Under the pieces are notes generated by a model. That model was not told the DNA's origin and searched no databases. It was given only the letters and a program-made list of their open reading frames with translations. The translations under genes and the position numbers were made by a program. Below, in pieces: positions 23,117-34,122 of a stretch of 64,000 nucleotides of DNA (its first letter is position 1; the number at the start of each line of letters is the position of its first letter). The stretch covers positions 186,001 through 250,000 of the forward strand of contig CAJXTB010000007.1 in assembly GCA_913061235.1 (NCBI GenBank), in the 5' to 3' direction. The stretch comes from an uncultured Pseudomonadota bacterium (GTDB taxonomy: Bacteria > Myxococcota_A > UBA796 > GCA-2862545).

Positions 23117-23437
23117 ATGCCTCTGCGCGACCATCTGTTTGTAGTCACACCCCCCAGCCAGCACCCGTTGGGGTGGCGGACGGCTGTCTGCGGTGAGACA
23201 CGTGTGGAGTTGGGGCCCTTCGCCACAGAACGCGACGCGATTATGGGCCTGCATCGTTTGTTTCAGCGCTGGCGGCTGCGTGCGAGGCGTCGCGGTGGGT
23301 TTTTGTGGCGTCAGACGGCGTGGCGGTGGGTGGTGACGTTGCCTCCAGACGTCCCCTGTAGTGGCCTTCCGTTTGTGTCAGAAGCCTGTACCCGGGCGGT
23401 TGCGAGTGGCGAAGTGCCCGCGAGTAAGGCATCCTAG
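23117..23437 (+). CDS. Small basic protein of unknown function
   Basis: This 106-residue frame has a Trp/Arg-rich middle (FQRWRLRARRRGGFLWRQTAWRW) and no signal peptide. Codon use fits the neighbours and it fills an otherwise empty gap between the ABC-F and nuclease genes. It has only a weak ribosome site (AGG) before the ATG. I do not recognise a family, and it might be spurious. Confidence 0.4.
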   Translation: MPLRDHLFVVTPPSQHPLGWRTAVCGETRVELGPFATERDAIMGLHRLFQRWRLRARRRGGFLWRQTAWRWVVTLPPDVPCSGLPFVSEACTRAVASGEVPASKAS

Positions 23438-23441
23438 CGCC

Positions 23442-24359
23442 ATGCGTTTTCTACCATTTTTGCTGCTCGCTGCCTGCCCTGGACCTGACACCGGAGACTC
23501 GGGAGACCCCGACTCGGGCTCGTCGGACGTTGGCTGCGAGGAGCGTGACGCAGACGATGACGGCATCAACGCCTGTGACGACTGTGATGACACCGATGCT
23601 GGCGTGTTCCCCGGAGCGCCCGAGCGCTGTAACGGTGTAGACGACGACTGCGACGGCGACCTCCACGAAGACGAGCTGGAGACGGACGCCGACGGCAATC
23701 CGACCTGTGCGTCGTGCGAGACCGCGGGGTACTGGGAGATGAGCCGCGATACGGCAGATGCGCAGCTGGAAAGCGCCTTTTCCGAAGCAATGGTGGGATT
23801 GCGCTGTAACTATACGGCCACCGGAGCTTGGATGTTCACTCGGCTAGACGTCGTGGATTCCGCTGTTGAGTGTGTGTATACCGGGCGCACGACCATCATC
23901 AATGGTCAGCGGCCGGACCAGACGGACATGAATGTTGAGCACACCTGGCCGCAGAGCGAAGGGGCCGGCGACCTACCGATGAAGTGTGACCTTCATCACC
24001 TCTTCCCCACGGATTCGGACGCCAATCAGGAACGTGGCGCCTATCCATTTGGCGAGGTTGTAAGTGGGACACAATGGAGCGAGGGCGGCAGTGAGCTCGG
24101 CAATGACCGCTCCGGCGACCGGGTCTTTGAGCCACGAGATGAGCACAAAGGCAACGTTGCACGGGCCATGCTGTACATGTCTATGGAGTACGATTGGTCA
24201 CTTCCTGCCGACCAAGTAGACCTGTTCGTGGCGTGGAATGCCCAAGACCCGGTAGACGCCGCTGAGCGGGACCGCAGCTTGGACATTGGCGAAGAGCAGG
24301 CCTTCGCCAATCCGTTGGTGGTGTGTCCGAACGTGGTGGACCGCGCCTTCGGCGGCTGA
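23442..24359 (+). CDS. Exported endonuclease I family nuclease with a calcium-motif domain
   Basis: This 305-residue protein starts with a lipobox-like signal (LLLAACPGPD), then a Ser/Asp linker and 'DADDDGINACDDCDDTD...PGAPERCNGVDDDCDGD', a metal-binding DCD module. The nuclease domain has NVEHTWPQS (about 163) and KCDLHHLFPTDSDANQERG, then FEPRDEHKGNVARAMLYMSM, all hallmarks of endonuclease I (EndA/NucM) family enzymes of the beta-beta-alpha-metal fold. It should cut extracellular or periplasmic DNA. The fusion of the calcium module to this nuclease is unusual but known in surface-rich genomes. It is followed by a convergent methyltransferase gene. Confidence 0.85.
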   Translation: MRFLPFLLLAACPGPDTGDSGDPDSGSSDVGCEERDADDDGINACDDCDDTDAGVFPGAPERCNGVDDDCDGDLHEDELETDADGNPTCASCETAGYWEMSRDTADAQLESAFSEAMVGLRCNYTATGAWMFTRLDVVDSAVECVYTGRTTIINGQRPDQTDMNVEHTWPQSEGAGDLPMKCDLHHLFPTDSDANQERGAYPFGEVVSGTQWSEGGSELGNDRSGDRVFEPRDEHKGNVARAMLYMSMEYDWSLPADQVDLFVAWNAQDPVDAAERDRSLDIGEEQAFANPLVVCPNVVDRAFGG

Positions 24360-25500: not shown

Positions 25501-27072
25501 CTAGCGCCCTAGGTGAATCGTCAGGCCGGCACTTGCGGTGACGGTCGCGTGTATGCCGAGCGTGCGGTCGACCTGGACTGGGTAGACAACCGCACCCAGG
25601 CGCGAGTCCAGCGACACCCGACGTCCGAGAGGCATGCGCAGTCCCGCAATCGCGGTCAGACCGGGAGCCACTGCTTCTAGGCGAAACGGCAGGTCGGCAT
25701 TGGGCACGTCGGGGTTCTGTACCTTGAGGTTCTGCACCAGCCACAGCGCTTGCACACCACCGCCAATGTAGGGGTCAAAGCGGGGTGTGCGGCGAACCGT
25801 CAGCATCACGAGACTCGCACTGCGGCTCTCGCTCCATAGCTGTGAGGTCCACGAATACCGGGTGCCCGCCGACCATGCCGTCGACAACTCCAGCCACAGC
25901 CCAGGGCGGACCCGTCGGCCGAGTGCCACATGAGCGCCCCCTCCAGACGGGTTGCCATTGGCGATGGATGTCCGCACCAACCCGGCCAATCCAACGGTCC
26001 ATCGGGTCTCCGGTACCCCGCTTCTTGCGAGCGGGTCGCCTACGGGAACGACCTGCATCTGCCGTTCGACGACCCAGCGGTCCCCACCCCAGGCCAGGTC
26101 CAGCTCACCGACCAGCACATCGCTTGTGCGCACTTTTCGTACGACGTAGCGACCGGGGGACAGCGCGACGCGTCGCTGAATACCGGGTTCTTTGTCCACG
26201 CGGGCAACGACCTGGCCGGAGGCGACCGACACAACGGTGTACGTGCCCTCCAGCTCCTCACCCAACACCATGCCGGCTGCAGACGCTGCCTGACGTGTCA
26301 GGATGACGTCGCCGACCCCCTCAAGCTCGGTGCGGTACTCGGGACGCTGCACGCCGGAGTCCCCACCCCTCGCGGACTGTACGACGGTCTGCTCGAAGGC
26401 GTATCGGTAGGCTTCGTCTAAGCTGACGGCGCCATCGACGTTGTCGTCGGCGGCACCACGAAGGCCGGTGAACAAGGCACTGCTGAACACGCCGCCACCG
26501 AACTGCTCAGACTCGCGCGCGACGGACAGCGGCCCAGTAGACGTCAACACCGCCAGACCAGTGCTACCAAGTGCGTCATTCACCGCGAGCTCGATTCCGT
26601 CGACCGGCGTTCCACCTCGGGTTCGTGCCAAGGTGCCCGATGCGCAGGCGTCTACAAAGGCCACGCGAACGTCCGCTTGGCTGCGCTCGAGCCAGCGCTC
26701 CACAACGCCCATGGGCAGAACACTACCGGACAGGTGCAGGCCGTCTGTGCTTGCGTGGCCCGAGTAGTACAAGACCACGAGAACTTCGTGTCCTGCGGCG
26801 TGTAGCTCTGCGATCTGGCCTTCGGTACTGCTCAATGCGTCGCGAACGACCTCTGCGCGTTGGCCAATGAGAACCGTGGACCGCTCTCGTCGAAGGCCGC
26901 CCATGTCGATGAATAAGTGGGAGAGGTCCTGAGCTTCTTTCTCAGCGTAGCGCAGAGGGACATCCGGCCCGAGACCGACGTTGTTGCCGATGAACAGGCC
27001 CAGACGAACGGTGTCGGCGAACGCTGGAAGCGCAACGAACAGTGCGATGAGAGCCAGCCACCAGCGTGTCAT
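25501..27072 (-). CDS. Caspase-family peptidase fused to an outer-membrane-barrel-like domain
   Basis: This 523-residue protein has a signal peptide (ends AFAD, about 20), then a C14-type caspase domain (about 22-240): LGLFIGN, LYYSGHAS with His106, and FVDACASG with Cys143, the catalytic pair. A linker with carboxypeptidase-like beta structure follows. Residues about 340-523 are alternating hydrophobic strands (VGLAGLVRTSIANG, WLELSTAWSAGTR, ASLVMLTVRRTPRFD) ending TASAGLTIHLGR, typical of an outer-membrane barrel terminus. So the protease would act in the periplasm, held at the outer membrane. The ATG overlaps the anti-sigma stop (ATGA). Target proteins are unknown. A regulated proteolysis or lytic role is inference. 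Confidence 0.75.
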   Translation of the reverse strand: MTRWWLALIALFVALPAFADTVRLGLFIGNNVGLGPDVPLRYAEKEAQDLSHLFIDMGGLRRERSTVLIGQRAEVVRDALSSTEGQIAELHAAGHEVLVVLYYSGHASTDGLHLSGSVLPMGVVERWLERSQADVRVAFVDACASGTLARTRGGTPVDGIELAVNDALGSTGLAVLTSTGPLSVARESEQFGGGVFSSALFTGLRGAADDNVDGAVSLDEAYRYAFEQTVVQSARGGDSGVQRPEYRTELEGVGDVILTRQAASAAGMVLGEELEGTYTVVSVASGQVVARVDKEPGIQRRVALSPGRYVVRKVRTSDVLVGELDLAWGGDRWVVERQMQVVPVGDPLARSGVPETRWTVGLAGLVRTSIANGNPSGGGAHVALGRRVRPGLWLELSTAWSAGTRYSWTSQLWSESRSASLVMLTVRRTPRFDPYIGGGVQALWLVQNLKVQNPDVPNADLPFRLEAVAPGLTAIAGLRMPLGRRVSLDSRLGAVVYPVQVDRTLGIHATVTASAGLTIHLGR

Positions 27073-27737
27073 GGCGCGCCCGTCAACAGCAGGGTTCGCT
27101 GGGTTCCGTCAACGGTCAAGCGGTCGGTTGTGGCGACGTCTACGCCGGCAGGAAGCATGGCGGCGTCTACCTGCAGTGGGGCGTCGCTCACAACGAACCA
27201 CACACGCTCTGCACCTTGGTAGCCATCCAGCTGAACGGTTCCTTCGACAGACAAGCCGGCGGTGACGGGGGCGGACTTCCACACCGCCCACACGCCGTCA
27301 TCTTGCTGGTCTACGACAGTCAGGTGGCCGTCGGTGTCGCTCAACACGCGCCACTGAAGCAAGTCACCCGGATGGGTCTGAATGACGCTGCCGGCGGCGG
27401 TGATGACGCCGTTGCGCACGACCTGTACGTCGAGCTCCATGGCTCCTCTGTAGGTCATCTGCGGGCCTTGCGGACGCAGGACAACCAGTGCTGTGATGCC
27501 GACAGCAGCGGCAACAGCGAGGCCCATTGCCCAGCGCCAGGGGCGGTTCGCCGGCTCGGGGATCTGGAGTGGTGGAGGCACGAAGGCGGGAACGGGAATG
27601 TCGACGTCTGCACGCAAGCGTTCGAGGCGCTCGGCCAGGTCTGGGTCGGCGTCCAGCGCGGCCTGGACCTCGCCGCGACGTTGCGGGTCCAGCTCGTCCA
27701 GCAGGTACAACTCTAGGTCGAATCGGGTGATGCTCAT
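27069..27737 (-). CDS. Membrane-anchored anti-sigma factor
   Basis: This 222-residue protein has an N-terminal helical segment 'FDLELYLLDELDPQRRGEVQAAL' like the sigma-binding part of anti-sigma factors, a Pro-rich linker, one membrane span (about 69-87, AMGLAVAAAVGITALVV) and a periplasmic beta domain of about 130 residues. It has no zinc-binding HxxxCxxC. It overlaps both the sigma factor and the caspase genes (ATGA each). It probably holds the sigma factor inactive until an envelope signal. The periplasmic domain may sense or bind something; not identified. Confidence 0.75.
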   Translation of the reverse strand: MSITRFDLELYLLDELDPQRRGEVQAALDADPDLAERLERLRADVDIPVPAFVPPPLQIPEPANRPWRWAMGLAVAAAVGITALVVLRPQGPQMTYRGAMELDVQVVRNGVITAAGSVIQTHPGDLLQWRVLSDTDGHLTVVDQQDDGVWAVWKSAPVTAGLSVEGTVQLDGYQGAERVWFVVSDAPLQVDAAMLPAGVDVATTDRLTVDGTQRTLLLTGAP

Positions 27738-28213
27738 GCGTCCGCCAGTCGCACGCGGGCGCGCTCTTCGAGGGCTGCAAGCTGCCGACGTACGCTGCGC
27801 TCGCTCATGTCAAAGTGCTCGGCAATCTCAATGAATCGCCAGTCTTCAATGTGTCTGAGTCGCAGCATGGCGGCCTCGATAGGGTCGAGTGATTCGAGCA
27901 GTCGGGTGATGTCCACACGGGCGCCACCATCCGCGCCATCGGCACCGAGTAGGCGGTCAAAGTCCCACGCCTCGGGAGACGTGTTCCACGGCCGGCGCTT
28001 GCGGAGCAGGTCGATAGAGGCGCTGCGTGCGAGGGTGTGTAGCCACCCGAGTGGTGAGCGTCCGTCGAAGCGGTCCCGGTTGTTCCAGGCGCGGATAAAG
28101 GTGTCTTGTAGGGCCTCTTCGGCGTCTGTGGCGTTACCGCAGACCGCCCGACAGCGCGCCAAGACGAAGCGTGCGTAGCGCGTGTACAGCGCGTTGAAAG
28201 CCGTCGCATCCAT
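27734..28213 (-). CDS. ECF sigma-70 factor
   Basis: This 159-residue protein has sigma region 2 (about 5-70: FNALYTRYARFVLARCRAVCG, DAEEALQDTFIRAWNN, GWLHTLARSASIDLLRKRR) and region 4 (about 108-155: SLDPIEAAMLRLRHIEDW, MSERSVRRQLAALEERAR), with no region 1 or 3. It should direct RNA polymerase to a stress or surface regulon, probably including its own operon. The start at 28211-28213 overlaps the lipoprotein stop (TGATG); a longer frame exists to 28303 but overlaps that gene. The anti-sigma gene overlaps its end. Confidence 0.88.
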   Translation of the reverse strand: MDATAFNALYTRYARFVLARCRAVCGNATDAEEALQDTFIRAWNNRDRFDGRSPLGWLHTLARSASIDLLRKRRPWNTSPEAWDFDRLLGADGADGGARVDITRLLESLDPIEAAMLRLRHIEDWRFIEIAEHFDMSERSVRRQLAALEERARVRLADA

Positions 28214-28845
28214 CAACCCTCGGGGCAGGCTGGCAGGGTGCTCTCGGTGAGGACCTCGCGCAGGAGTGGGTCGCCGTCTTCCAGAACAAACACCGACAGC
28301 CACGGCAGTTCGTCGGGGCTGTCGGGCCCCAAGGCTGCCACTAGGTCACCCTCGGTCAGGGAGCGTGCATCATCCAGTCCGAGCCACTGGCCACCCTCAA
28401 TAAGGGAGATACCAACCGCGTTGGAGGCGTCTGCGGCGGAGCCCTCTACATGTACGTAGACGAAGTCCGGTACACCGAACGCACTCTGGAGTGGGGATTG
28501 TTCGGTGGCCGTGCGAATGACGACGTCGTCTGAGCCGCGCGTCACGGCAATCGGTACGGCTAAGCTGATGACCGAGCCGCCCGAGGTCTGCCAGGCAACC
28601 GGTTCTGCGGGCTGGGGTGCGAGCATGTCCAGCTGCGCAAAGGGCAGGAAGGACAGGTCGACACCATCGCTCGATAGGGGCAGCAGCGCGCACTGCCCAG
28701 TCAGTCCGCCGTCCTGGAGCCACCGCAGCTCCCACGCCAAGTTGCGCGGGATTTCGAGCGTGTCGATGCGTCGCAGTCCTTGGCTTCCCACAAGGGAGCC
28801 GCAGGCGGCGAGCATCAGGCACAGGAGAGGGAGGGCAGAGCGCAT
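28213..28845 (-). CDS. Lipoprotein in the sigma/caspase operon
   Basis: This 210-residue protein has a lipobox (LMLAAC, about 15) and a beta-rich body without recognised motifs. It lies 9 bases after the trypsin gene and overlaps the sigma gene by 1 base, so it is part of the same transcript. It could be the sensing or outer-membrane component of the system (inference from order only). Confidence 0.7.
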   Translation of the reverse strand: MRSALPLLCLMLAACGSLVGSQGLRRIDTLEIPRNLAWELRWLQDGGLTGQCALLPLSSDGVDLSFLPFAQLDMLAPQPAEPVAWQTSGGSVISLAVPIAVTRGSDDVVIRTATEQSPLQSAFGVPDFVYVHVEGSAADASNAVGISLIEGGQWLGLDDARSLTEGDLVAALGPDSPDELPWLSVFVLEDGDPLLREVLTESTLPACPEG

Positions 28846-28854
28846 GGTGGCGTC

Positions 28855-29760
28855 CTAACCCTGGCGCTGTGAGCGACGACGTCCCATGAGAAACAACAGG
28901 CCAAGGCCAGCGATACTCCACGGGATGGCGACGGTGGACACCGAGCTGCAGCCAACGCCACGTCGTCCTCCTTCCTCCCAGCCTTCGTCGTCCCAGTCGC
29001 CTGTGTCCCACGAGGCGGTGTCCCAGCTGTCGTCGTTTCCGCCGCCATCGCCGCCGTTGTCAGCGACCGCTCCGCCGCCGTTGGTGCTCGTCAGAACCCA
29101 GTCGGCGTAGATGTCGGTGCGTGTGTTGCCGCCGGCATCCATGCAGTCGTCGGTGTAGCCGAACGAGACCACGCCCATGACGTGCAGCTGGCCGTCCACG
29201 TTGCGGTACAGGGGGCCCCCCGAGTCGCCAAAGCAGGCGCCACCGTTGTCGGTCTCTGCGACCAAGACGTCGCCCTCAAGCTCCGTCACATGGGCGTTCG
29301 CAGCCTTGCGCTTTCCGTCGCCACCGGTGCCTTGGGTGTCGCCGTAGCCGGCGTAGATGAACGACGTGTTGACCAACTGGGCGGCCGGCGTGCGGTCGAT
29401 GGGGATGACCACGGCGCTGACGTCTTCGTCCAACAGCAACACAGCGATGTCTGCGGCGAACTCGGCGTTGAAGTCGTAGTCAGGGTGCATCCAGCCGTCA
29501 CGAACGGCGACCATGTGGCCGCTACCGAGGGTGTCTCCGATCATGATGTGGCTCGGCGTGTCGCCACCTTCGAGGCAGTGTGCGGCGGTCATCACTCGGT
29601 CGGCAGCCACAATGGTTCCGGTGCAGCCGAACTCGCCGTCCCAGTACAGAGCCACCGTCGACTGGAAGTCAGAGGTCACCGCACCGCCAACCACAAACGG
29701 GTTGTTCGCGAGGGCTGGGGTAGCGGCGGCGAAGAGGGTGGAGAGTAGGATGACACGCAT
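28855..29760 (-). CDS. Trypsin-like (S1) serine protease with C-terminal anchor
   Basis: This 301-residue exported protein has a signal peptide (ends TPALA, 18) and an S1 domain with the full triad: His61 in MTAAHC, Asp104 in ADIAVLLLDED, Ser180 in GDSGGPLY. Residues about 235-275 are a Gly/Asp/Trp-rich linker, then GCSSVS, a hydrophobic stretch and GRRRSQR, a MYXO-CTERM-like anchor. The protein is thus likely held on the cell surface. It is the first gene of the operon with the lipoprotein, sigma factor, anti-sigma factor and caspase. A GAGGTG site precedes the ATG. Substrates are unknown; activation of a surface partner is possible. Confidence 0.85.
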   Translation of the reverse strand: MRVILLSTLFAAATPALANNPFVVGGAVTSDFQSTVALYWDGEFGCTGTIVAADRVMTAAHCLEGGDTPSHIMIGDTLGSGHMVAVRDGWMHPDYDFNAEFAADIAVLLLDEDVSAVVIPIDRTPAAQLVNTSFIYAGYGDTQGTGGDGKRKAANAHVTELEGDVLVAETDNGGACFGDSGGPLYRNVDGQLHVMGVVSFGYTDDCMDAGGNTRTDIYADWVLTSTNGGGAVADNGGDGGGNDDSWDTASWDTGDWDDEGWEEGGRRGVGCSSVSTVAIPWSIAGLGLLFLMGRRRSQRQG

Positions 29761-29886: not shown

Positions 29887-31236
29887 TTATCTTGGCGGGT
29901 GGTCGCCAAGGGCATCTGGAGAGAGCAATCGGACCTCGTCTGAGAAGGCCTCCACACCCGCTGTGTCTCGACCAATCACCACCGACACCACGCGCACGCC
30001 ACGTGACTCACGGGCTTGGGCGACACGGGCAATGACGTCGTCTTCGGCGCGGGCCAGTCCGTCTGTGACGACCAGAATGTCGGCGCGTTCTAGGGCTTGT
30101 TCCTCCAACAGCTCCAGTGCGCGAATGAGGGGTGCGTCAAAGTCGGTGCCGCCGCCAAAGCTCTGGGTCAAGAACGACAGCAGCGCTTCAAGACCGCCCC
30201 GTCCAGCGCGGATACGGGCTTCGGTGCGGTCATCGGGTCCGCTGAACAGGAGCAGGTGAATGGCGCGTCCTTGCGGCAGGGCTTGCCGGCAGACAGCGAG
30301 CACCAGGGCTTTTGCGATGTGTTCAGGGCGCCCGCGCATACTGCCGGAGGTGTCGACGCAGGCAATGACCGGACCGCGCTTGTCACCATCGCCAACGCCG
30401 TTGATTCCTTGGCCGGACAGCTCCAGCGTCAGCAGACGATGCTCTGTGAGTCGCTGGTAGAAGAGGTCTTCTGTGTCGGGGTCTGCGAGCATGGCCAGCT
30501 CGGCCGGTAGCGCGCGGGAGACGTCTCCGGACAGCGTGACGCCAGCGACTTCTTCGGAGCCGCCATCCCCCAGATTGGTCTCGCCATCCATGCGTCCGAG
30601 GCGCTCGGCGATGTCTTGCAGGGCATCCAGGCTCTGAAGCAGGGTGGCCAAGCGGTCGAGGTCTGCAACGAGTGCCGGTTCTAGCGAGCCGGGTGCCGTA
30701 GACCAGCCCACTCCTGGCAGGAAGGACTCTAGGCGTTCGACCAAGTCATTGCCGTCGATAGCGCCGTCTTCTGCGGCGCGTGCGGCTTCTGCCAGGGGGC
30801 GTCCGGCGTCTGCTGCAGACTGGACGGCGTCGTCTCCTGGTTGGGTCAAGCGCAGGGCCAGCTCACGCAGTTCTGGGTCGTCTTCGCCGCCGGCTCCTAC
30901 GTTCTCAAGCCATGCGTCTACGTCTTCGGTGTCGTCTGAGTCGCTGCTGTCACCCACCTCCCAAGAGATGCGCAGTAGCGGCCACAGAGCGGCGACGGCG
31001 CGAGCGGCGGCTTCGACAGCGAGCAGCGGACGGTTGTGGCACAGGCGGCGTGCGTCACTGAGTTCTCGGTCGGCAACGAGTACGACAACGCGCGCCAGAG
31101 GAGACAGCCAGGCGTCGTCTCCTACGAGCCATCGCGCCAGGTCTTGGGCGAACCGGCCGATACGCCGCTGTTCGGAATCGTCCCCCCCAAGGTCGCGGAC
31201 CAAGGGGTGGTGTTGGACGATGTCAGTCGCGTTCAC
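29887..31236 (-). CDS. ViaA-like VWA-domain protein
   Basis: This 449-residue cytoplasmic protein has a helical N-terminal half (about 1-285) and a C-terminal VWA domain with the MIDAS motif ACVDTSGSMRG (about 294-303) and a later metal-site Thr/Asp pair in 'GGGTDFDAPLIRALELL'. This is the layout of ViaA, the partner of the AAA+ ATPase RavA, which is encoded in the same operon at 32080. The pair acts as a MoxR-type chaperone on respiratory complexes in E. coli. The track start is a TTG at 31260; GTG 31236 falls 4 bases after the previous stop with a weak GGAC site and is preferred. Confidence 0.78.
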   Translation of the reverse strand: MNATDIVQHHPLVRDLGGDDSEQRRIGRFAQDLARWLVGDDAWLSPLARVVVLVADRELSDARRLCHNRPLLAVEAAARAVAALWPLLRISWEVGDSSDSDDTEDVDAWLENVGAGGEDDPELRELALRLTQPGDDAVQSAADAGRPLAEAARAAEDGAIDGNDLVERLESFLPGVGWSTAPGSLEPALVADLDRLATLLQSLDALQDIAERLGRMDGETNLGDGGSEEVAGVTLSGDVSRALPAELAMLADPDTEDLFYQRLTEHRLLTLELSGQGINGVGDGDKRGPVIACVDTSGSMRGRPEHIAKALVLAVCRQALPQGRAIHLLLFSGPDDRTEARIRAGRGGLEALLSFLTQSFGGGTDFDAPLIRALELLEEQALERADILVVTDGLARAEDDVIARVAQARESRGVRVVSVVIGRDTAGVEAFSDEVRLLSPDALGDHPPR

Positions 31237-31240
31237 CCGA

Positions 31241-32083
31241 CTATCGTCCGCTTCGGCCAATCACGGCGAGGTCGCGTTCGCCCTGGCCGTCGCCAATGAG
31301 CGTGTCCATGCGCTCGCCAAGTCCCGGAAGGACAGCGAGCGGACGGTCGCCAGCGGCTTTGACCATGAGGCCGAGGTCTTTCCGCGCCATCTTGAGCGAC
31401 CACTGGGTCTTGTAGTCTCCGTCTGCCATGCGCTCGCCGCGGCCGGCAAGGGTGTTGGCTGGGTTGAAGATCTTGAACAGCTTGGTCACGTCGCTGGGCT
31501 TCAGGCCGTTCTCTGACGCAATGCTGTGACCATCTGCCAGGCCCCCCATCATAGCCAGAATCATGGCGTTTCCGCAGAGCTTTAGGGTGGCAGCAGCACC
31601 GGGGTCTTCGCCGATGTACCAGACGTGACCGGTCATACGACCGAGCGCGTCCGTGGCTTCGTTGTAGAGGCCTTTCGGGCCGCTGACCATGATGATGCCC
31701 GTGGCATTCTTGGCGGCGACCGGCGACATGAACACCGGAGCGTGTAGGAAGCGGATGCCCTTGGCGGCGAGGTCCGCTGCGCGTGTTCGGGTTCGCTCGG
31801 GAAGCGTTGTGCTGTGGTCAATGACAATGGCGTCTTCGCGAAGGTGGCCGAGCATCTGGGCCAAGACGGCGTCAACGGCGTCGTCTGCGGTGAGTGCCAG
31901 ATGCACGAACTGTGCCTTGGCCACGGCCTCAGGAATGGTGTGGGCAATGGTGGCGCCCGCATCTGCGAGGGTCTGAGTCCTCGCCAAGGTCCGGTTGTAC
32001 GCGGTGACTGCATCTTCGCGCTCTAGAGCGGCGAGTCCAATTCCGGTTCCAATCATTCCGGTTCCGATAATGGCGTGTTTCAT
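31241..32083 (-). CDS. NAD(P)-dependent 3-hydroxyacid dehydrogenase-family protein
   Basis: This 280-residue protein has the Rossmann start MKHAIIGTGMIGTGIGLAAL, then YNRTLARTQTLADAGATIAH, VIDHSTTLPERTR and FLHAPVFMSPVAAKN, in the order of beta-hydroxyacid dehydrogenases (3-hydroxyisobutyrate dehydrogenase family). The catalytic Lys fits AAATLKLCGNAMI. The start ATG overlaps the RavA-like stop (ATGA), and its own stop is 4 bases before the ViaA-like start. Why a dehydrogenase sits between RavA and ViaA is unclear. The substrate is unknown. Confidence 0.82.
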   Translation of the reverse strand: MKHAIIGTGMIGTGIGLAALEREDAVTAYNRTLARTQTLADAGATIAHTIPEAVAKAQFVHLALTADDAVDAVLAQMLGHLREDAIVIDHSTTLPERTRTRAADLAAKGIRFLHAPVFMSPVAAKNATGIIMVSGPKGLYNEATDALGRMTGHVWYIGEDPGAAATLKLCGNAMILAMMGGLADGHSIASENGLKPSDVTKLFKIFNPANTLAGRGERMADGDYKTQWSLKMARKDLGLMVKAAGDRPLAVLPGLGERMDTLIGDGQGERDLAVIGRSGR

Positions 32084-34122
32084 GAGGTCTCCAGGGGGGC
32101 GCGGGGCAGAGTTTTGGGACGAGGTACCGCTTGACGTCCAAGCTGGCGTCGGACCGAGTCGAGAGCCGTAGTGGCGCTGCGAGCAGCCCACGTGGGCGCT
32201 TTGTCGGCAAACTTTGCGGTGGTGATGGCACCGTCTACCCAGTTGAGGAAAGCGGTGGTGTCTGAAGGGATAACCGCAACGTCGTCGCTTGCGGGATCTA
32301 CGCCAACTCGCTCGCCAGCCAGGGTCAGTCCGGTGCGAATCTGACCGTCTTTTAAGGAGATGACACAGGCGACGTCGTTGCCGAAGAACCGCATAGGCCG
32401 CTTGGGCAGCGCTTCGATGAGCATCTTGGCTAGGGCATCTTGGCTGGCCAGACCGCGCTCGTAGGTCTCTGCCACCTCAAGAATATCGACTAGCTCTCGT
32501 GCGGCGCGAATGTGTGCGGCGAGAAGTCGGTGGGGGAGCGCCTGAAGCCATGGATGCGCGTCGGCGGCGCGATCCAGGCGGCTTCTGTCCGCCGCAAGAC
32601 GTCTCACGGCGGCGGTGTGGTGGGCGAGAAAGCGGGTCGCGCTGGCGTGGCGTCGAATGCGTTGGCTCTCCCAGTCCGTGCCGCTGTGCCCGATGGATAC
32701 GGTGTCGTCGCCCAGTGGAGCGACCCGGTCTGAGCCCAGAAGTGTCCACTGAACGTATAGGTCGTGGCTCGGCACGCTTCGAGTGCCCAGAAGGGTCACC
32801 AAGACCTCTCGGACTTGGCTTGCGAGCACTGGAGTCGGGGCGAGCATGGGCTCGAGAAGCAGCAAGTCCAACGGGTCGAGCTCGGTTCGTCCGGCTGTCG
32901 CGGCGGCCACTTTGAGCACGTCAATGGCATGACGCCATCGGCGGTCGCTGACGGGCCACTCACGCTCCTGGGCCGTCGTCCACAAGGTCACGAGCGCATC
33001 TTGCATGGACTGAGGCACGGTGACGTTGGCGGCTGCCTGGCGGATGCCCTCGCGCTCGTCTGCAGTCAGGCGAAGTTCTTCTGGAATCACGGGTGCTTTG
33101 ACGGTGCCGGTGGCCACGGCCAAGAAGGACTCACGCCCTGCGAGGGGAGGCACGCTTAGTCGTACAAGGAAGCGGTCGAAGAGTGCGCCGAGGCTGTCGT
33201 CGGCGGGCAGCTCGTTCGACGCGCCAATCAGGCCAATCAGCGGAACGGGGTCTCGGTGTCGACCGTGATGGAACACGCGCTCGTTGACGAGGGTGAGCAG
33301 GCTGTTGAGAATGGCGCTGTTTGCCTTGAAGATTTCATCGAGGAAGGCGACGCTGGCTTGTGGCAGGTACCCCGTGGTCAATCGCCGGTAGTCCTCCTCC
33401 TTGAGCCCAGGAATGGAGACCGGACCGAACAGCTCATCGGGGTTGGTGAACCGGGACAGCAGGTACTCAAAGTAGGTCTCATTGCTGAAGCAATCGCACA
33501 GACTTCGTGCGAGCATGGACTTTGCCGTTCCCGGTGGCCCGAGCAGCAGCACATGACGTCCGCCCAACAGTGCCAGTAGGCTCGCACGTACGACTGCACC
33601 ACGCTCGAGAAATGCGCCGTCTAGGACGTCGAGCAGTGCGGTGATTTTCTGGGTCGTCGCTGGAGTCGTATGCACCTGCTCTGCGGATGCCTGGTTGGGA
33701 CTCACTTGTTGGAATGCGCCTGCTGGCGGCACCTCCGACCCCTGCTCACGCGCGCCGTCTACGACTGCTTGTGCGTAGGTGTCTCGTCGCACACGCAGGT
33801 CGTCAGGCACGACAATGCTGCCCACCCAGGCGGCGTAGCGTAGCGCCAGGTCTTCGAGCGATGTGTCCGTTCGAGCCATCAGGTGGCCGGTCTCCGGGTG
33901 CCAAGCCAGCACATGAGACAGGGGCAGCCAGCCAACGAGACCTGCTACTCGGGTCGCGTCTCCGTTGCCCGCCGCAGCATCTGTCAACGCGCTGGCGCCA
34001 GTATGGTTGTTGCTCATGGTGATGGCAGCGGCGAGCGTCCGCACCACAACGGCAGGTCTGCGAGGAAGCCTTGGGCGCCCTTCGACTGCGGTCACACCGG
34101 AAATGTCTGGCCAGTCCGCCAT
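32080..34122 (-). CDS. RavA-like MoxR AAA+ ATPase
   Basis: This 680-residue protein has a MoxR/RavA-type AAA+ domain: Walker A GPPGTAKS (195-202), Walker B VAFLDEIF (258-265) and sensor GASNELP. About 160 residues precede it, longer than usual, and a C-terminal helical region of about 200 residues follows. RavA-type ATPases work with a VWA partner, here the ViaA-like protein at 29887. A GAGGG site lies about 9 bases before the ATG; a second in-frame ATG occurs at residue 36. The N-terminal extension is not recognised. Confidence 0.8.
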   Translation of the reverse strand: MADWPDISGVTAVEGRPRLPRRPAVVVRTLAAAITMSNNHTGASALTDAAAGNGDATRVAGLVGWLPLSHVLAWHPETGHLMARTDTSLEDLALRYAAWVGSIVVPDDLRVRRDTYAQAVVDGAREQGSEVPPAGAFQQVSPNQASAEQVHTTPATTQKITALLDVLDGAFLERGAVVRASLLALLGGRHVLLLGPPGTAKSMLARSLCDCFSNETYFEYLLSRFTNPDELFGPVSIPGLKEEDYRRLTTGYLPQASVAFLDEIFKANSAILNSLLTLVNERVFHHGRHRDPVPLIGLIGASNELPADDSLGALFDRFLVRLSVPPLAGRESFLAVATGTVKAPVIPEELRLTADEREGIRQAAANVTVPQSMQDALVTLWTTAQEREWPVSDRRWRHAIDVLKVAAATAGRTELDPLDLLLLEPMLAPTPVLASQVREVLVTLLGTRSVPSHDLYVQWTLLGSDRVAPLGDDTVSIGHSGTDWESQRIRRHASATRFLAHHTAAVRRLAADRSRLDRAADAHPWLQALPHRLLAAHIRAARELVDILEVAETYERGLASQDALAKMLIEALPKRPMRFFGNDVACVISLKDGQIRTGLTLAGERVGVDPASDDVAVIPSDTTAFLNWVDGAITTAKFADKAPTWAARSATTALDSVRRQLGRQAVPRPKTLPRAPLETS

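Follow-up and report, generated by a model that had tools for sequence, protein, structure and literature searches.

A recurrent sigma factor, anti-sigma factor and exported caspase unit as a candidate envelope-signalling switch in Myxococcota

Few bacterial caspase homologues have an established role, and these proteins are usually discussed as cell-death enzymes. In the stretch analysed here, a window of 64,000 nucleotides from contig CAJXTB010000007.1 of an uncultured bacterium placed by GTDB in Myxococcota_A, a caspase-family protease with a signal peptide is encoded directly behind an extracytoplasmic function (ECF) sigma factor and a putative membrane anti-sigma factor. As judged by gene order across genomes, these three genes are the conserved unit. 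Comparative data and structure models further suggest what the unit may do: it may be an envelope-signalling switch, in which an outer-membrane caspase would cut the anti-sigma factor after R97 and so release the sigma factor, a reading for which we hold the case evenly poised. The broader proposal is put forward tentatively, as having somewhat more against it than for it: that such units form a widespread class in which the outer-membrane caspase is a dedicated site-1 protease, it recognises one RxK/R-Gly sequence both in its own activation loop and in the anti-sigma linker, and caspase maturation is thereby coupled to sigma release. The three genes and the elements within them are located in the window as follows.

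27734..28213, minus strand: ECF sigma factor, 159 amino acids, regions 2 and 4 (Pfam Sigma70_r2 and Sigma70_r4_2; TIGR02937 above cut-off)
27069..27737, minus strand: putative membrane anti-sigma factor, 222 amino acids (NCBIfam anti-sigma match below cut-off; AlphaFold2)
27444..27449, minus strand: R97-G98, the linker Lys/Arg-Gly, candidate caspase cleavage site (conservation; linker position in the AlphaFold2 model)
25501..27072, minus strand: exported caspase-family protease, 523 amino acids (Pfam PF00656, AlphaFold2, Foldseek)
26755..26757, minus strand: codon of the catalytic His106 (invariant in an alignment of 24 homologues)
26644..26652, minus strand: D141-A-C143, the catalytic Cys and, two residues earlier, the Asp expected to be the S1-pocket acid (D141 and C143 invariant)
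26614..26625, minus strand: R150-T-R152-G153, candidate autoprocessing site ([K/R]G in nearly all homologues examined)
25510..26001, minus strand: predicted eight-stranded outer-membrane beta-barrel, residues 358-521 (AlphaFold2; OmpA, OmpX and NspA matches)

Recurrence of the three-gene unit

A sequence-only reading of this DNA had described five minus-strand genes within window positions 25501-29760. Their products are, in order, an S1 protease, a lipoprotein, the ECF sigma factor, its putative anti-sigma partner and the exported caspase. This layout was reproduced down to its spacings: 9 bases lie between the end of the S1 protease gene and the lipoprotein start, the lipoprotein and sigma genes overlap by 1 base, and the sigma/anti-sigma and anti-sigma/caspase junctions overlap by 4 bases each. 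Pfam detected Trypsin (E-value 1.5e-22), Sigma70_r2 (4.5e-18), Sigma70_r4_2 (1.4e-8) and Peptidase_C14 (4.3e-5), and its search of the locus gave no match for the anti-sigma factor or the lipoprotein. The sigma factor is a small protein with sigma-70 regions 2 and 4 only (Pfam, NCBIfam), which makes it an ECF sigma factor, as had been proposed. The five-gene order as a conserved operon did not survive comparison: 2 of 186 loci have the S1 protease nearby, and the lipoprotein is confined to the closest relatives. Its sigma/anti-sigma/caspase part is kept in relatives and passed the conservation test that the same reading had set.

Across dozens of genomes the sigma factor, anti-sigma factor and exported caspase recur in this order, the last two genes usually overlapping by 4 bases, and because of that recurrence the arrangement is not chance. 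A homologue occurs in 48 of 58 related genomes. The window genome itself (G000) has seven C14 matches and at least four such anti-sigma factors adjoining caspases. A second copy of the unit (C7:135665-137230; L011, L182) lies ~75 kb away on the window's own contig, in the order lipoprotein, sigma, anti-sigma, caspase, with a caspase 52% identical to that of the window. A scan of named genomes returned 80 loci, mainly from Myxococcota or "Deltaproteobacteria" metagenome assemblies together with one Fibrobacter (L146), and sigma and anti-sigma genes precede the caspase in most loci with enough upstream DNA. The test least biased towards the caspase was a phylum-wide search with the anti-sigma periplasmic domain alone. 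That domain is present in 41 of 122 genomes, and of 40 loci selected by it, 32 have an adjacent caspase, 5 have none and 3 stop at a contig edge, giving 32 of the 37 with enough flanking sequence. Six loci from the genome scan have the trio split or rearranged in order, spacing or strand, yet its members stay within a few kb of one another, which points to a functional link beyond inherited gene order. No further conserved partner gene was found beside the trio; no neighbour cluster exceeds 8 of the 80 loci.

Two loci, L115 and L067, carry a tandem pair of caspase genes behind a single sigma/anti-sigma pair. Five others (L099, L101, L116, L132 and L136) come from assemblies titled Klebsiella pneumoniae or Bifidobacterium breve; these titles look mistaken, because the sequences fall among Myxococcota-type relatives.

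Architecture of the caspase and the anti-sigma factor

The window caspase comprises a signal peptide (residues 1-19, assigned by inspection), a caspase domain (~21-235), a small beta domain (~243-343) and a C-terminal barrel (358-521), in an AlphaFold2 model with a mean predicted local distance difference test score (pLDDT) of 83. Peptidase_C14 (PF00656) matches at 23.7 bits against a cut-off of 21.4, and Foldseek matched the caspase fold at TMt 0.6-0.68. The His106/Cys143 dyad named in the sequence-only reading is correctly placed, and H106, D141 and C143 are invariant among the 24 aligned homologues. Because His, Cys and Asp141 are invariant, these caspases look active. By metacaspases and MALT1, D141 is presumably what gives specificity for a basic P1 residue. 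Lys/Arg specificity is predicted from this conserved Asp together with the literature on bacterial homologues, in which metacaspases cut after Arg or Lys (PMC3501461) and bacterial orthocaspases cleave after positively charged residues (PMC6426788).

The "barrel-like C-terminus" noted earlier resolves, in the AlphaFold2 model, into eight strands (358-369, 377-389, 392-406, 410-426, 433-452, 460-481, 486-501 and 504-521). Foldseek places OmpA closest (TMt about 0.7), with NspA and OmpX also matched, so that structure prediction contains both the signal peptide and the barrel that had been claimed for this protein. When an OmpA-type barrel has an even number of strands and a catalytic domain at its N-terminus, that domain is on the periplasmic side. 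Since the modelled barrel is eight-stranded and the catalytic domain N-terminal to it, the caspase is apparently anchored in the outer membrane with its catalytic domain facing the periplasm. The aligned caspases all retain the His and the Cys, and a hydrophobic, signal-peptide-like start is found in nearly all of them. Outer-membrane barrels typically have Phe as their last residue; this is so in 64 of 140 relatives, whereas Phe makes up 3.6% of residues overall (p about 2e-53, uncorrected for relatedness). A cytoplasmic defence or CHAT-type system was also considered and is unsupported: these caspases have signal peptides, and the window protein scores 51.2 bits with the EACC1-associated caspase model (NF047832), far below its cut-off of 140.

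The putative anti-sigma factor is modelled by AlphaFold2 (mean pLDDT 86) with cytoplasmic helices at residues 5-45, a transmembrane helix spanning 68-87, then a linker (88-99) and a beta-sandwich (~100-220). Encoded straight after the ECF gene, with a cytoplasmic N-terminus, one membrane helix and a periplasmic domain, it has the layout of a membrane anti-sigma factor, in keeping with its earlier description as membrane-anchored, and from this layout we infer that it binds and inhibits the sigma factor. The cytoplasmic part comes in two kinds, with and without a zinc motif, and the membrane helix and periplasmic domain are common to all anti-sigma factors compared. The periplasmic domain is related to DUF4384, detected in 14 of 31 homologues and not in the window member; its structural matches are weak. 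At a separate locus, L169, the DUF4384-like domain occurs in two neighbouring larger proteins, one of which weakly matches the caspase profile, suggesting that fusions of the two domains also occur.

The linker motif and the direction of signalling

An enzyme–substrate relationship is suggested by a short motif. R97 lies ~10 residues beyond the membrane helix, between the helix and the periplasmic domain; the caspase domain and R97 would both be periplasmic, so their placement fits the caspase cutting the anti-sigma factor. A Lys/Arg-Gly in this linker is found in 103 of 119 anti-sigma factors whose locus holds both a sigma gene and a caspase, versus 2 of 10 in loci without a caspase (Fisher p = 1.7e-5), and, within divergent domains only, in 13 of 21 with a caspase versus 0 of 7 without (p = 0.007). 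Where the Gly is replaced it becomes Ala or Ser and the Lys/Arg is retained (RIKA, RLKS, RPKS). An Arg stands two residues ahead of the basic residue in 70 of 109 cases, producing RxKG. The caspase family has its own version of this sequence, a consensus TRxKGG about nine residues past the catalytic Cys, in the window protein R150-T-R152-G153; it lies in a loop modelled at low confidence, with pLDDT below 50 at residues 153-166. In animal caspases the intersubunit linker, the site of maturation cuts, is similarly distant from the Cys.

These features can be assembled into a sequence of events. At rest, the anti-sigma factor would hold the sigma factor at the inner membrane, with the caspase inactive or kept away. 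A signal in the outer membrane or periplasm would activate the caspase, probably through a self-cut after R152 behind the catalytic Cys. The active enzyme would then cut the anti-sigma factor after R97, in the short linker that joins the membrane helix to the periplasmic domain. Release of the sigma factor would be completed by a site-2 (M50) protease together with cytoplasmic proteases; M50 candidates are present in the window genome. At the window locus, the sigma factor may also control its own operon, and with it the lipoprotein and S1 protease. The cleavage, its direction, the triggering signal, the regulon and the autoregulation are what we infer; the gene unit, the order and fold of the domains, the motif conservation and the association of motif with caspase are what was observed or predicted here.

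The opposite direction was the one originally proposed, in which the caspase is an output controlled by the sigma factor. The exported barrel caspase and the sigma/anti-sigma/caspase order in that proposal stand, the S1 protease turned out to be a rare addition, and the data fit the caspase as input better. In its full form the output explanation, which we consider unlikely, has the sigma factor freed by an unrelated protease, for instance a DegS-like one, and turning on its own operon; the caspase, here together with the S1 protease, then degrades or processes envelope or foreign proteins. Sigma factors do often autoregulate and are encoded next to their targets, the window operon also holds a secreted protease and a lipoprotein, and several trios per genome (four in G000) could be different effectors. 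It leaves unexplained, however, why the caspase alone is a constant partner when other neighbours reach at most 8 of 80 loci, and why the linker motif both tracks the presence of the caspase and matches the caspase loop. On gene comparisons, the caspase as an input to the sigma factor fits better, because it is tied to the anti-sigma factor in nearly every locus and because the linker motif matches the caspase loop and is largely absent from loci without a caspase. Auto-activation of the operon could make the caspase both input and output.

A match between linker and loop fits a pseudosubstrate equally well as a substrate. The caspase might bind the anti-sigma factor as a non-cutting sensor in the manner of FecA and FecR, or the anti-sigma domain might inhibit the caspase through its Lys/Arg-Gly; the order of sigma factor, anti-sigma factor and outer-membrane protein does resemble fecIRA. 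This appears quite improbable to us: pure binding has no need of an invariant catalytic dyad, and a flexible, membrane-adjacent linker is the expected position of site-1 cleavage. Still further down the scale, and highly improbable, is a role as maturation peptidase for secreted or surface proteins, with the sigma factor present only for co-expression under stress. A processing role has been proposed for caspase-like peptidases in secreted toxin systems, but a recurring cargo gene beside the trio was not found (largest cluster 8 of 80 loci) and the anti-sigma motif would go unexplained.

Several observations weigh against cleavage of the anti-sigma factor by an outer-membrane caspase. Some relatives have no recognizable C-terminal barrel signal, the window protein among them, which ends in HLGR without a Phe. 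A few caspase-linked anti-sigma factors (L059, L064, L092 and L114) lack the motif, and two (L163 and L164) keep it without an adjacent caspase, both from G005, a genome with a caspase elsewhere. With 10 members the control group is small, related lineages do not count as independent, and anti-sigma factors without a caspase are more divergent on average. The Lys/Arg-Gly could also aid folding of the domain or dock the caspase. Finally, the pairing of R with R in loop and linker in the window's clade is probably one evolutionary event. Covariation of Lys and Arg between caspase loop and linker (p about 5e-5) was rejected as evidence on this account, its R-R pairs coming from one clade. A looser motif test, accepting Lys/Arg followed by Gly, Ala or Ser, gave a weaker contrast because it counts chance matches and places six loci with a nearby caspase among the controls; the stricter Lys/Arg-Gly test was devised after the result of the looser one was known.

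Some related anti-sigma factors have no caspase beside them. At L164, a sigma factor and a zinc-type anti-sigma factor with an RTKG linker are followed by an apparent serine/threonine protein kinase gene in place of a caspase. L165, L167 and L168 have a sigma factor and a zinc-type anti-sigma factor with a DUF4384-like domain, and neither a nearby caspase nor a linker Lys/Arg-Gly.

Accessory genes, known systems and implications

The two remaining genes of the window operon lie upstream of the unit.

28213..28845, minus strand: predicted lipoprotein (MLAACG), 210 amino acids (weak homologues in L045 and L046/L084, and in L011, the locus of the 52% paralogue)
28855..29760, minus strand: S1-family serine protease with a signal peptide and a MYXO-CTERM-like tail (Pfam Trypsin)

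The S1 protease bears the motifs AAHC, DIAV and GDSGG, and NCBIfam MYXO-CTERM sorting models score just under their cut-off on its tail. At the base of its specificity pocket (GGACFGDSGG) a Gly takes the place of trypsin's Asp189, so Lys/Arg specificity is not expected. By its distribution among the loci, this protease is a local addition outside the conserved unit. A second, rearranged S1 case occurs in a Kofleriaceae assembly (L126), in which caspase, sigma factor, anti-sigma factor and S1 protease follow one another on one strand. Farther upstream on the operon's strand are genes for a VWA-domain protein (window 29887-31260) and an ATPase (window 32080-34122) matching bpMoxR, the MoxR domain of MoxR-vWA-beta-propeller ternary systems. 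Just past the operon, on the plus strand, lies a gene for a secreted endonuclease I with a MopE-type metal-binding motif (window 23361-24359).

In outline the proposed switch resembles RseA/DegS/RseP, with a membrane anti-sigma factor, a periplasmic site-1 protease and an M50 site-2 protease. DegS, however, is an inner-membrane serine protease, whereas the candidate here is an outer-membrane caspase from the same operon. FecI-FecR-FecA is alike in gene order and topology, with a barrel protein whose N-terminal signalling part is periplasmic encoded behind the sigma and anti-sigma factors. It differs in that FecA is a large TonB-dependent outer-membrane transporter with a non-enzymatic signalling domain; here the predicted barrel is eight-stranded, of OmpA size, and joined to a protease domain. 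The nearest experimental parallel is Csx29/Csx30, in which the TPR-CHAT caspase-like protease Csx29 cleaves Csx30 and relieves inhibition of the ECF factor CASP-sigma (PMC10028731). Like the present unit, that system links a clan CD protease to an ECF sigma factor and its inhibitor; unlike it, the system is cytoplasmic, triggered by CRISPR RNA, and uses another inhibitor and another protease. For the ECF54 group, peptidases have been proposed as regulators, some with caspase-like CHAT domains (PMC8999054). The ECF54 neighbours are CHAT, subtilase or carboxypeptidase proteins, and the group is described without an anti-sigma factor, whereas the present unit has one.

Operons joining sigma factors to caspases have been known since 2012. 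Four of the five metacaspases of Myxococcus xanthus sit in sigma-70 operons (Asplund-Samuelsson et al., 2012, PMC3501461), similar operons occur in Anaeromyxobacter, Haliangium, Sorangium, Ralstonia and Fibrobacter, and autolysis or cell death was suggested for these metacaspases (PMC3501461). These operons share ground with the present loci, including Fibrobacter (L146), and are very likely of the same type; the text of that paper makes no mention of a barrel, the periplasm or any anti-sigma factor. Among the open-access papers searched, none was found that describes the three-part unit, subscription papers lying outside the search. New relative to the searchable papers are the partnering anti-sigma factor, the anchoring in the outer membrane and the match between the two sites.

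If true, the proposal would give one large group of bacterial caspases a concrete signalling job: the substrate would be the product of the adjacent gene, and both the cut site and the location are predicted. Caspase-type proteolysis would then carry information from the outer membrane to the genome, in parallel to the cytoplasmic CRISPR-linked protease/sigma system. The idea is testable in M. xanthus, reported to hold four sigma–caspase operons (PMC3501461).

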